From Flammeovirgaceae bacterium (GTDB lineage: Bacteria; Bacteroidota; Bacteroidia; Cytophagales; Cyclobacteriaceae), in contig JAHEKQ010000022.1 in NCBI GenBank assembly GCA_024638265.1, forward strand, positions 1 through 42,687: DNA of 42,687 bases. Reading direction: 5' to 3'. The notes under the pieces are model-generated. The model saw only the letters and a program-made list of their open reading frames with translations. It was not told the origin of the DNA and ran no database searches. The position numbers and the translations under genes are program-made. Shown here in pieces: positions 17,935-21,135 of this stretch. Numbering within the stretch: position 1 is the first letter of the stretch; the number at the start of each line of letters is the position of its first letter.

Positions 17935-18319
17935 TCGGTTTGGTTTAGGTACTTCTAAAAATCGGGGTTTGATGGGAGATTTACAAGTCGATGGGTTGAT
18001 GGGGTGATGAGTAGAAGGGTTGATGGGGAGATGGGGGATGGGGGGATATTGGAAAGTAAAAGGGGTATGAGAATTAATATTTTAATTTTTTCCGTTTTGT
18101 AAACTTTAAACAGAGTACAACAGCGATGTTTTTATGACATACACCTAAGTTCCAATAATAATTTACTAGGTGAATTTCCCAATTGCTAAAGGATACAATT
18201 GAAATTGAAGAAACAATAATCAGACTAAGGAAGAGAATACTGGCTTTTTTAAAATATTTAAAAAAATAAACCCTTCTACCCTTTTACTCTTCTACCCTTT
18301 AACCAATTTACCTTCAACC
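17935..18319. other. Gene-free, repeat-rich and AT-rich stretch
   Basis: Positions 17977-18055 are degenerate octamer-type repeat (GGGTTGAT / GGGGAGAT / GGGGTGAT). From 18060 to 18270 the DNA is strongly AT-rich with no convincing ORF; a 32-codon open stretch around 18175-18270 lacks a start codon. From 18270 to 18300 there are pyrimidine-rich CCCTTCTA-like repeats. No gene is called here. Confidence 0.6.
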
Positions 18320-18665
18320 TAAAATAGAAACGGGAACCCCCCATTTAAGAAAAGCTCCCGTTTCCGCGTTGATCATTCCGTAGAATTCACACCGCGACCA
18401 AGACTTGTTAATCCGCTTCATTCCGCCATACCAAGGCATAGGACGAAAATCTGGCGCTCTGCTAGCTCCGGTCTCTCATACCTCTGGCCTTTCACCCGGA
18501 GGAATCTGACGCACGTGTCTGTAACTTCGTTATTTCAGATCAACACCCGAGGGCGCTGTTCCATTTACCTTTGTCGCGAGACTTCTTACTGTCAAAGAAC
18601 TAGGCATTGCTGCCTGCGATTTAATAGTCGCTTGATGAATCTAATGTCGATAGATTAACACTATC
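18320..18665 (-). ncRNA. Probable structured non-coding RNA, about 345 nt, family not recognised
   Basis: No ORF covers this stretch, yet it is GC-richer than its surroundings and full of hairpins. Read on the minus strand: a 5' hairpin GATAG/CTATC (18649-18665), GCGAC/ATCGC (18616-18631), GGCA-GCAA-TGCC with a GNRA loop (18603-18614), an interrupted stem GTTC,TTTG/CAAA,GAAC (18558-18600), ATCTGA/TCAGAT (18504-18540), CTCCGG/CCGGAG (18466-18501), ATTC-TACG-GAAT with a UNCG loop (18375-18386) inside a CGCG/CGCG stem, and a final terminator-like stem AAACGGGA/TCCCGTTT (18327-18362) followed by CTATTTT. A promoter-like pair lies just upstream. The core motifs of RNase P RNA, tmRNA and SRP RNA were looked for and not found. 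Confidence 0.6.
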
Positions 18666-18667
18666 TG

Positions 18668-18698
18668 CAAATTTTTTTACCCCTTTTTTATCCACAAC
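18668..18698 (-). promoter_or_regulatory. Candidate promoter of the structured RNA
   Basis: On the minus strand, GTTG (18698-18695) stands 19 bp before AAAATTTG (18675-18668). The latter matches TAnnTTTG except at the first base. Spacing equals that of the tRNA-Val promoter in this window. The predicted start would fall a few bases before the first hairpin of the RNA. A perfect DnaA box (18688-18696) overlaps the upstream element. Confidence 0.45.
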
Positions 18699-18759
18699 TT
18701 TCCCACAGTCATATTTTCTAAAATCACATTTTTTTGTGGATAACTGGTTGTGTGGAATA
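18688..18759. promoter_or_regulatory. Cluster of DnaA-box-like sites
   Basis: A perfect TTATCCACA at 18688-18696, TTTCCCACA at 18699-18707 (7/9), a perfect inverted TGTGGATAA at 18735-18743, and TGTGGAATA at 18751-18759 (7/9 on the minus strand). They sit in an AT-rich stretch with T-tracts. Four sites in 72 bp suggest DnaA binding: control of the adjacent RNA, titration, or a replication origin. No dnaA or other origin-linked gene is nearby, and the long downstream operon is on the minus strand, which argues against an origin. The remainder up to 18898 shows nothing. Confidence 0.5.
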
Positions 18760-18898
18760 GAACCTTGGCTTGCGATGGAGTTTCAGTGTGAGTATTGTAT
18801 GGACGGATCAGTTTATCTCGCCCTTAAGGTGGAACTCTCTATTTGTGGTTTTGTCAGCCTCGGTGATCACACTCCACTCTCACACTCAAACTGCTCCG

Positions 18899-18982
18899 TG
18901 CTCAGAGCGGGAGTCGAACCCGCACGTCCTAACGGACACATGGCCCTCAACCATGCTTGTCTACCAATTCCAACACCTGAGC
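18899..18982 (-). tRNA. tRNA-Leu (anticodon GAG)
   Basis: Minus strand: acceptor stem GCTCAGG / TCTGAGC (one G-U) with discriminator A. The D-loop has AATTGGTAGAC. The anticodon arm is CATGG-TTGAGGG-CCATG with anticodon GAG. It has a long variable arm (TGTCCGTTAGGACG) and a T-arm with GGTTCGACTCC. Length 84 nt, no encoded CCA. It is a second leucine isoacceptor, about 3.1 kb from the CAG gene. Confidence 0.95.
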
Positions 18983-19056
18983 GGTGAATTGGGTGGCAAA
19001 AATAAGTTAGAAGTTGATAAGTTCAAAAGGTTAGGAGGTTTTAGGTTGGAGGTTTT

Positions 19057-19144
19057 GGGTTGATGGGTGAATGGGTTGGTGGGTTGGTGGGTTGGTGGGT
19101 TGGTGGGTTGGTGGGTAGATGCGTAGATGGGTTGGTGGGTGGAA
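19057..19144 (+). repeat. Octamer minisatellite (GGGTTGGT)n, 11 units
   Basis: Units in order: GGGTTGAT, GGGTGAAT, five GGGTTGGT, GGGTAGAT, GCGTAGAT, GGGTTGGT, GGGTGGAA. The array starts 74 bp from the 5' end of tRNA-Leu(GAG). Together with 41563-41682 it forms an octamer family distinct from the heptamer family. Confidence 0.9.
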
Positions 19145-19201
19145 AGAGAATAGATGATAATAGCTAACGTGTAACTACAAAGCAATATTCAACTTACCCA
19201 G

Positions 19202-19366
19202 TGGACCGCAGGTCCAATCCCCGTGAACAGGTGAACAGGTGAACAGGTGATCGAATAAAGATTATTATCTATTATCATACTCTCTAATCTACCTTACGCT
19301 TGCCATGGAATCATACCTTCAGAGTACTAAACCCACTGTTAGTTGTTAGTGTTAGTGTTAGTTACC
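19202..19366. repeat. Small palindrome and short simple repeats in a gene-free stretch
   Basis: The interval 18983-19473 has no gene. Besides the two large arrays it contains the perfect palindrome TGGACC-gca-GGTCCA (19202-19216), three and a half copies of GTGAACAG (19223-19254), and GTTAGT-type repeats near 19338-19366. No promoter or terminator is recognisable. Confidence 0.6.
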
Positions 19367-19379
19367 TAATTGCCCTTCC

Positions 19380-19463
19380 TGCATCCTGCATCCTGCATCC
19401 TGCATCCGGTATCCGGTATCCGGTATCCTGTATCTGGTATCCGGTATCCGGTATCCGGTATCC
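19380..19463 (+). repeat. Heptamer minisatellite, 12 units, at the end of the cta operon
   Basis: Four TGCATCC, three GGTATCC, one TGTATCT, then four GGTATCC, all in phase (84 bp). It ends 10 bp from the stop of the subunit IV gene, so it forms the start of the 3' untranslated region of the respiratory operon. No standard terminator is seen there. Confidence 0.95.
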
Positions 19464-19473
19464 GCTTTTTCCC

Positions 19474-19803
19474 CTAAGGAGTAATCATCGTATCACCCTC
19501 ATAAACAAGCGCTACGATAAGCCACATGACGAAGACCATGGGTAAAACGATTGCCCAAATGAGGGATTTGACCTCGTATTTCAGGTGCATGAACTCTCCG
19601 ACGATATAGGCCGCCTTAATAATGGTCATACCAACGAATATGGCCACTTTGAGCGTCTGCATCGTATAGGGAAGCGTGAATGCTACCCCGAATTCCAATA
19701 CGGTAACTATAAAAAGTATAACAGCTACCCGGATAAGCTGACGTATTTTCTTCTTATCAGCGGGTTTGACTTCTACGGTAGTTGATGATTGATGAGATTC
19801 CAT
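19474..19803 (-). CDS. ctaF: Cytochrome c oxidase subunit IV
   Basis: Small membrane subunit of 109 residues with three hydrophobic helices (about 23-45, 51-70 and 80-102) after a polar N-terminus. FMHLKYE in the second loop is typical of the CtaF/CoxD family. It stabilises the heme-copper oxidase in the inner membrane. It is the last gene of the 12-gene respiratory operon, 9 bp after subunit III. In many Bacteroidota a SCO/SenC copper chaperone and a DUF420 protein follow at this place; here only a heptamer array and then a tRNA are found. Confidence 0.9.
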   Translation of the reverse strand: MESHQSSTTVEVKPADKKKIRQLIRVAVILFIVTVLEFGVAFTLPYTMQTLKVAIFVGMTIIKAAYIVGEFMHLKYEVKSLIWAIVLPMVFVMWLIVALVYEGDTMITP

Positions 19804-20538: not shown

Positions 20539-20547
20539 TAATTCTTG

Positions 20548-21135
20548 CTATTGATGGTTGAATATTAAGAATACGAATAAATAAATCCAAAGCGCTCCAA
20601 GAAAATGCCAGTAAGTATTGGCCATTTCCAGTCTCACCATGGCTTTAGAATGAATTCTGAACTTATGTGTATTATAAAGTATTATCCCAATAAAGATTAT
20701 TCCACTGATCAAGTGCACCCAGTGTAATCCACTTAAAACATAAATAAATGATTCAGAAGGGTTTCCACCTGTGAAATAGACATTATTACTGATCATATCA
20801 CCCCAAGCCATAAACTGGCCTCCAAGGAACAATAGCCCCATAATAAGTGTAAACCAGAGCAATGAGATAACAGTCTTCAACTGGTCTCTCCTTGCCGCTC
20901 TAACCGCCATCTGCATCGTAATACTGCTGACCAGAATCACTGCCGAAGTGTAGTAGAACATCTGAGGGAGATCAAATACCCTCCAGTTTCCGTCCCCTCT
21001 TTTCACGAGATATGCACTCGTCAGGGAAGCGAATATCATCACGATACTGATCATGAATAACCAGAGCGCGAATTTCTTGGGATGCATGGCCAAAGGCCTG
21101 TCTGGACTCTCTACTAATTTCATATCAACTCTCAT
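20548..21135 (-). CDS. Cytochrome c oxidase subunit III family protein (short copy)
   Basis: Membrane protein of 195 residues with five predicted helices, belonging to the heme-copper oxidase subunit III fold. YVLSGLHWVHLISGIIFIG and the closing TYWHFLGALWIYLFVFLIF align with the end of the long copy. The start overlaps the stop of ctaB by 4 bp (ATGA). It is probably a second structural subunit of the same oxidase; whether both copies are present together in one complex cannot be read from sequence. Confidence 0.9.
   Translation of the reverse strand: MRVDMKLVESPDRPLAMHPKKFALWLFMISIVMIFASLTSAYLVKRGDGNWRVFDLPQMFYYTSAVILVSSITMQMAVRAARRDQLKTVISLLWFTLIMGLLFLGGQFMAWGDMISNNVYFTGGNPSESFIYVLSGLHWVHLISGIIFIGIILYNTHKFRIHSKAMVRLEMANTYWHFLGALWIYLFVFLIFNHQ

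Follow-up and report, generated by a model that had tools for sequence, protein, structure and literature searches.

The window analysed in this work is a 42,687-nt stretch of a Flammeovirgaceae genome (G000). Positions 18320-18665 had been described in a sequence-only reading as a gene-free, hairpin-dense region encoding an unrecognised structured RNA on the minus strand. The absence of genes was borne out, since no ORF of at least 60 aa overlaps the region. Codon scores for 18366-18662 were negative in all six frames (−0.21 to −0.63), which makes the stretch non-coding by codon usage; five real genes, themselves part of the training set, scored +0.19 to +0.27. The GC content is 0.471 in the RNA stretch; the gaps on either side of it have 0.345 and 0.409. 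The RNA gene (Table 1) would start near 18664-18661 and end with the terminator stem at 18326, upstream of a 264-aa gene. Its product, at 18664-18326 (-), is referred to below as the window RNA, and its counterparts in the genomes G067, G128 and G238 as relatives.

Table 1. Features of the RNA gene and its upstream region, in window coordinates
Feature	Position	Strand	Basis or remark
RNA gene, inferred, about 335 nt	18326..18664	(-)	sequence, terminator, homologs
Intrinsic terminator, 17-pair stem	18326..18365	(-)	terminator scan
Conserved 5' motif GACAUUAGAUUC	18637..18648	(-)	in window, G128 and G238; weaker in G067
P2, 5' strand AUCAAGC	18630..18636	(-)	covariation, four members
P4 hairpin AGGCA-GCAA-UGCCU (GNRA hairpin of the sequence-only reading)	18602..18615	(-)	covariation; fold, p 0.95
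P5 hairpin GAACAGCGCC-CUCG-GGUGUUGAUC	18538..18561	(-)	fold, covariation, signature control
CUGAAA-type motif AUCUGAAAU, directly 3' of P5; AUUUGGAAA in G067	18532..18540	(-)	
P6 hairpin UAAC-GAA-GUUA	18522..18532	(-)	pairs in three members; not seen in G067
Variable middle domain; long arm 18505-18420 in window fold	18414..18521	(-)	fold
AUUAACAA before P2' (AUAAC in the other three members)	18405..18412	(-)	
P2, 3' strand UCUUGGU	18397..18403	(-)	covariation
3' hairpin AUUC-UACG-GAAU (UNCG hairpin of the sequence-only reading)	18375..18386	(-)	CUACGG also present in G067 and G238; absent from G128
TTTG, candidate promoter element, Bacteroidetes −7-like	18668..18671	(-)	read from sequence
Putative DnaA box TTATCCACA, in one arm of a perfect 10-nt inverted repeat	18688..18697	(+)	overlaps the −35 of the sequence-only reading
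Second putative DnaA box TTATCCACA, inverted arm	18734..18743	(-)	

A 111-codon stop-free frame with no start giving 60 aa runs antisense to the RNA at 18323-18658 (+). Such a run was present in 44 of 2000 shuffles and the codon usage of the frame is non-coding; with Pfam also negative for five translated frames, the reading of the region as a pseudogene was rejected.

In the neighbourhood, the tRNA-Leu(gag) gene at 18898-18982 (-) lacks the long terminator hairpin that comes directly after its G007 and G015 orthologs. The next strong terminator listed after it is that of the window RNA, which makes read-through transcription from the tRNA possible. COX4, at 19000-19803 (-), has repeats and tRNA-Leu downstream, a place occupied by other reading frames in the related genomes examined. 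Short tandem repeats, e.g. GGGTTGGT and ATCCGGT, occur in the intergenic gaps at 19040-19110, 19390-19465 and 17990-18060. Within the RNA, GTTCTTTGACA (18600-18590) presumably resembles boxA. An rRNA-leader reading was nevertheless dropped: GTTCTTTGAC was found in only four other loci among those examined (L012, L018, L020, L023), with no rRNA found in any of them, and the GTTCTTTGACA string is not kept in the RNAs of the relatives.

Folding and comparison with known RNA families

The two minus-strand tetraloop hairpins pointed out in the sequence-only reading, AGGCA-GCAA-TGCCT (18615-18602) and ATTC-TACG-GAAT (18386-18375), are both present and both belong to the RNA: the first, P4, pairs in each of the four members, and the UACG loop occurs in three of them. 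The terminator stem, put at 10 bp in the same reading, turned out to be stronger, with 17 pairs, and the U tail poor (ATTTTA). As a statistic, the density of hairpins did not hold up. The fold z was −2.85 with the terminator and only −0.73 when this was left out, a value equalled or bettered by 70 of 300 shuffles (−0.40 in a 60-shuffle run), the plus strand giving −0.63, whereas nine tmRNAs and one RNase P RNA scored from −1.47 to −5.18. Since the fold statistic rests on the terminator, folding alone is insufficient for the RNA claim.

The 5' and 3' ends had been said not to pair as those of RNase P RNA and tmRNA do. The predicted fold does pair GUGUU.AUC with GAU.AACGC (helix P1, p about 0.8), and this end-to-end helix was not seen in the relatives. 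P4 (p 0.95) and the inner seven pairs of P5 (p 1.00) form in the predicted fold of the window RNA, of which the minimum-energy version prefers another helix over P2.

Comparison with Rfam covariance models gave no match in the RNA at the gathering cut-off, nor at E up to 10 in a 1-kb search. Among the relatives' RNA stretches, Rfam 15 gave none in L207 at E up to 1 and none in L217 and L335 at E up to 5. In line with the sequence-only reading, which had found no RNase P core motifs, the RNA is not RNase P RNA: the RF00010 match (231.6 bits) lies elsewhere in the genome, at C1:115769-116140, and nothing was found in the window. The tmRNA core was likewise missing, with ARAGORN negative, the tmRNA covariance model negative at E up to 10, and neither a T-loop nor a tag frame seen by eye.

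The source genome encodes SmpB (C1:108793-109209), and a tmRNA was not found in it over the cut-off (best 21.1 bits); the gap is probably one of assembly and possibly reflects a diverged tmRNA. A tmRNA over the cut-off was obtained for 55 of the 59 genomes searched, three others besides the source genome being without one.

Relatives of the window RNA

Blastn of the window RNA gave nothing convincing in 59 genomes, none of them of the same genus, nor in 390 family and 390 order genomes, for which two candidates per genome were scored. Over the 390 family genomes only short marginal rows were obtained. The BLASTN comparison put forward in the sequence-only reading was therefore productive only through one such row (G128), which proved real, and was unconvincing by itself.

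A covariance model made from the single window sequence (R1) was then run on the 390 family genomes, up to four candidates per genome being scored. Besides the window itself two matches with E of 0.01-0.02 per genome were found, in G067 and G166. The G166 match falls within a gene of 495 aa and was discarded as a chance hit. The match in G067 (L207/L234; 18.4 bits, E 0.021 per genome) is intergenic, with the motif of the window (AUAACAA...CUUGG...GGUGU.A.UUCUACGGA) at the end of its 3' part, followed by a hairpin and a U run. About eight matches of such E are expected in 390 genomes, so the G067 match alone proves little.

The G128 locus was chosen by visual inspection of the marginal matches, for its likeness to the window. 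The blastn row (E 0.003-0.007 per genome over 390) covered the region of the DnaA boxes described below and the 5' end, and the locus has the same 5' motif, hairpins at the P4 and P5 positions and UUAAUCUGAAAUA. R1 misses this locus and is thus not sensitive. An 88-aa frame lies antisense to the 3' part of the G128 RNA.

As a test of G128, about 2 of the 4.1 Mb of G238, a genome of the same genus, were examined. This part contains the ispH ortholog (74% identical to that of G128), immediately preceded by the RNA (nhmmer E 4.3e-15), which combines the 5' motif as in G128 with the 3' motif (ACUUGG...CUACGG) as in G067 and the window. When a profile was built from G128 and G238 only, leaving out the window, its top match in about 4.2 Mb was the window RNA (E 0.0027, next 0.16), a result that is not wholly independent because G128 had been chosen for its likeness to the window. 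G238 alone retrieved the window RNA at E 0.25 in 55 kb. The G128 and G238 RNAs (L217 and L335) share a further conserved segment of the middle domain, UAAGGGAGUGGUAU, not seen in the window member.

G067 is the weakest member of the four. It was not listed by the G128 and G238 profile, and nhmmer of either of these RNAs against the G067 contig gave no match at the RNA. The model of window, G128 and G238 found it at the expected place, which came only fifth among 16 places (16.5 bits) in a search of 1.73 Mb and sixth among 13 in one of 0.73 Mb. Blastn of the G238 RNA against the G067 contig gave four matches, of which two fall within the RNA, in order (E 0.074 and 3.1). The minimum-energy fold of G067 contains P2, P4 and P5 (z −3.19 with the 3' hairpin included).

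The four members, 335 (window), 277, 446 and 477 nt long, have in common helix P2, hairpins P4 and P5, the CUGAAA-type motif and AUAAC before P2'. The spacing from the 5' motif to ATCTGAAAT is 104-108 nt in the window, G128 and G238; other co-occurrences of the two within 700 nt were limited to two loci (L411, L435), at 599. The 3' stems of the window and G128 were listed by the terminator scan; those of G067 and G238 were not and were read from folds and alignment.

Conservation of the RNA beside its neighbours in the window was considered and rejected. No such RNA was seen downstream of COX4 in six related genomes (G007 being read from about 0.4 kb further on) or downstream of tRNA-Leu(gag) in two, G007 and G015. 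The rather insensitive model R1 likewise detected none when applied to 54 loci that surround tRNA-Leu, COX4, the 264-aa gene or the G007 tmRNA. A phage origin was rejected as well: 9 and 103 viral stretches gave no profile match below E 0.16, and the phage and plasmid collections were negative. The E. coli genomes gave no match to the RNA.

Covariation of the helices

Compensatory base changes, named in the sequence-only reading as a check on the RNA, were found in P2, P4 and P5, which covary across the four members. In these helices, placed by hand on the same four sequences that were used for testing, 12 of the 21 pairs change on both sides, compared with 5.6 in shuffles, and 91.7% of 84 cells are paired; on no measure did any of 500 shuffles score as high. 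For the pairing counts the members were cut to the core, the loops of P4 and one loop base of P6 in G238 were trimmed, and the middle domain and P3 were excluded.

Taken singly, P2 has changes on both sides in three of its seven pairs (89.3% of cells paired over the four members) and P4 in three of four (100%). P5 lies in a gapless layout between its tetraloop and the CUGAAA-type motif in all four members, with ten pairs and 90% of 40 cells paired; six pairs change on both sides, a number reached by 7 of 500 shuffles. Its covariation was 0.900, compared with 0.368 in shuffles (0 of 500 as high) and at most 0.233 when the helix was slid, and the tetraloops differ among the members (CUCG, CACG, GUAA, UCCG). 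P6, counted in the window, G128 and G238 with G067 excluded, is paired in 12 of 12 cells with changes on both sides in three of four pairs; this is reached by 27 of 500 shuffles and is only suggestive. RNAalifold applied to G128 and G238 alone proposed P4, P5 and the hairpin after CUGAAAU (P6), but not P2.

The P5 signature was also controlled against background. A 10-4-10 hairpin occurred in 618 of 400,000 random 24-mers, and somewhere in 1560 of 60,000 random 40-nt stretches (2.6%). At 11 of the 119 ATCTGAAAT sites in the searched DNA, the sequence immediately upstream forms such a hairpin (9 pairs or more), and all eleven are copies of the window (8), G238 (2) or G128 (1) RNA.

With no Rfam match, homologs in three genomes of the same family and covariation of P2, P4 and P5, the description of the region as an unrecognised, lineage-specific structured RNA on the minus strand was sustained. 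These comparisons indicate that 18664-18326 (-) is very probably a member of a new family of stand-alone structured RNAs. The family adds an RNA that evades sequence search, its base-paired structure being kept while the letters change, and shows that a single-sequence covariance model combined with synteny can recover homologs for which a BLAST search is not convincing by itself.

DnaA boxes and the possible role of the RNA

The promoter-like pair proposed at 18668-18698 was absent from the listing of a sigma-70 scan. TTTG at 18671-18668 resembles the Bacteroidetes −7 promoter consensus. The inverted pair of putative DnaA boxes upstream of the RNA had escaped the sequence-only reading, and like sites occur upstream of the relatives. 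Boxes (TTATNCACA) were counted in 165 nt starting 160 nt upstream of each anchor. Exact boxes numbered two in the window, one in G067 and one in G238, G128 having one-mismatch sites only. The total of 4 exact boxes compares with 0.056 in shuffles and that of 10 boxes with at most one mismatch with 1.24 (0 of 500 shuffles in both cases), counts that include the window, which prompted the question of boxes, and G128, found partly through its box region. Without the window, 2 exact boxes compare with 0.045 (2 of 1000 shuffles) and 8 boxes with at most one mismatch with 0.995 (0 of 1000). In 4000 random G238 stretches the mean was 0.009 exact boxes.

On this basis we regard it as evenly poised whether the new RNA family is under the influence of DnaA. 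The gene lying downstream is a 264-aa gene in the window, ispH in G128 and G238 and a 152-aa gene in G067. Three different downstream genes in four members argue against a leader RNA or riboswitch and for action in trans, and the RNA probably acts in this way. We lean towards the view that the locus is a stand-alone ncRNA gene, the first described of a Cyclobacteriaceae-type family, with a promoter region containing DnaA boxes, whose transcription would be tied to DnaA and whose product would act in trans. This leaning applies to the statement as a whole, which joins what was computed (homology, P2/P4/P5 covariation, box enrichment) to what we infer (transcription, DnaA binding, trans action).

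The gene would have its own promoter region with putative DnaA boxes and its own terminator. The RNA would consist of a conserved 5' domain, which comprises the 5' motif, P4, P5 and the CUGAAA-type motif and is enclosed by the long-range helix P2, and of a variable middle. Binding of DnaA to the boxes, situated at the promoter and farther upstream, would tie transcription of the RNA to the replication cycle, and the RNA would then act in trans, its hairpins providing a scaffold or a place for protein to bind and the conserved stretches that separate them (GACAUUAGAUUC, CUGAAA, AUAAC) making the contacts. As to function, a DnaA-responsive regulatory small RNA is our best guess, a tentative one. 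Similarly speculative is the wider proposal of a fast-evolving class of structured RNA in Cyclobacteriaceae-type bacteria, with DnaA-governed transcription and the window RNA as its founding member, in which the RNA and not a protein would inform targets, or DnaA itself, of the state of replication initiation. Should the DnaA boxes prove functional, a structured RNA would be tied to replication initiation, which is testable in cultivable relatives.

The boxes may instead be incidental or serve another factor, the RNA being real and acting as a housekeeping or scaffold RNA with no link to replication. We consider this possible, though on the unlikely side. DnaA binding is only predicted, TTATCCACA is about 2-fold enriched over the reversed pattern genome-wide (50 vs 23) and G128 has no exact box; exact boxes are, however, found upstream of three of the four members, at unrelated loci, and far above shuffles both with and without the window.

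The box clusters, and the inverted pair in the window, would also suit a DnaA-binding DNA site, such as an origin or a datA-like titration site, with the conserved stretch working as DNA. Against this improbable reading, covariation of the hairpins and of the long-range P2 points to RNA. Moreover, no lasting GC-skew switch was seen at the locus in the window (skew below zero to either side, +0.029 over the 1.5 kb that contains the locus) or in the examined part of G238 contig C46 (−0.020 to the left, −0.094 and −0.034 to the right), the skew being weak and noisy in both; by that test the locus is not an origin, though DnaA boxes are present. Elsewhere in the source genome, contig C127 has three exact TTATCCACA boxes within 107 bp (20541-20647), a candidate replication origin and a likelier one than the RNA locus.

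Chance, that is, a decayed sequence next to a terminator with look-alikes from database noise, would fit the z of −0.73 without the terminator, the marginal first matches and the weak support for G067. We regard it as very unlikely given the recovery of the window RNA by the G128 and G238 profile, the finding of G238 via synteny, the P2/P4/P5 covariation and the signature control at ATCTGAAAT sites. A strongly diverged tmRNA is hardly credible: the SmpB without a detected tmRNA in the source genome when 55 of 59 genomes have one, the closing stem of the window fold and a 3-kb G007 contig bearing both a tmRNA and a homolog of the 264-aa gene, in a differing arrangement, are outweighed by the negative tmRNA searches and inspection by eye, by the three other genomes lacking a tmRNA over the cut-off, by an assembly of G000 in 173 contigs and by G238, which carries the RNA (L335) together with a normal tmRNA (L281 7665-8057, tag GESNYAMAA).

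A search of the open-access literature for DnaA together with RNA found no paper, and one for Cyclobacteriaceae small RNA had a sole match, on soil-crust cyanobacteria. Among known systems, tmRNA (RF00023) resembles the window RNA in length and in the closing stem of the window fold, and differs in that the window RNA has no detected tRNA-like domain or tag and that G238 has a separate tmRNA. OLE, GOLLD and ROOL are longer than the new RNA and, to our knowledge, their functions are largely unknown. They are orphan large structured bacterial RNAs (PMC12286853), and the new RNA is like them in being a stand-alone, long, structured non-coding RNA gene. It differs in having no Rfam match and no member in the phage, plasmid and viral collections as searched. 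The genes dnaA and mioC are controlled by DnaA, and datA and DARS are DnaA-titration loci; the known DnaA targets are protein genes or DNA sites. The new locus shares with them DnaA boxes, here predicted, in the promoter region, and differs in that the boxes are followed by a structured RNA.
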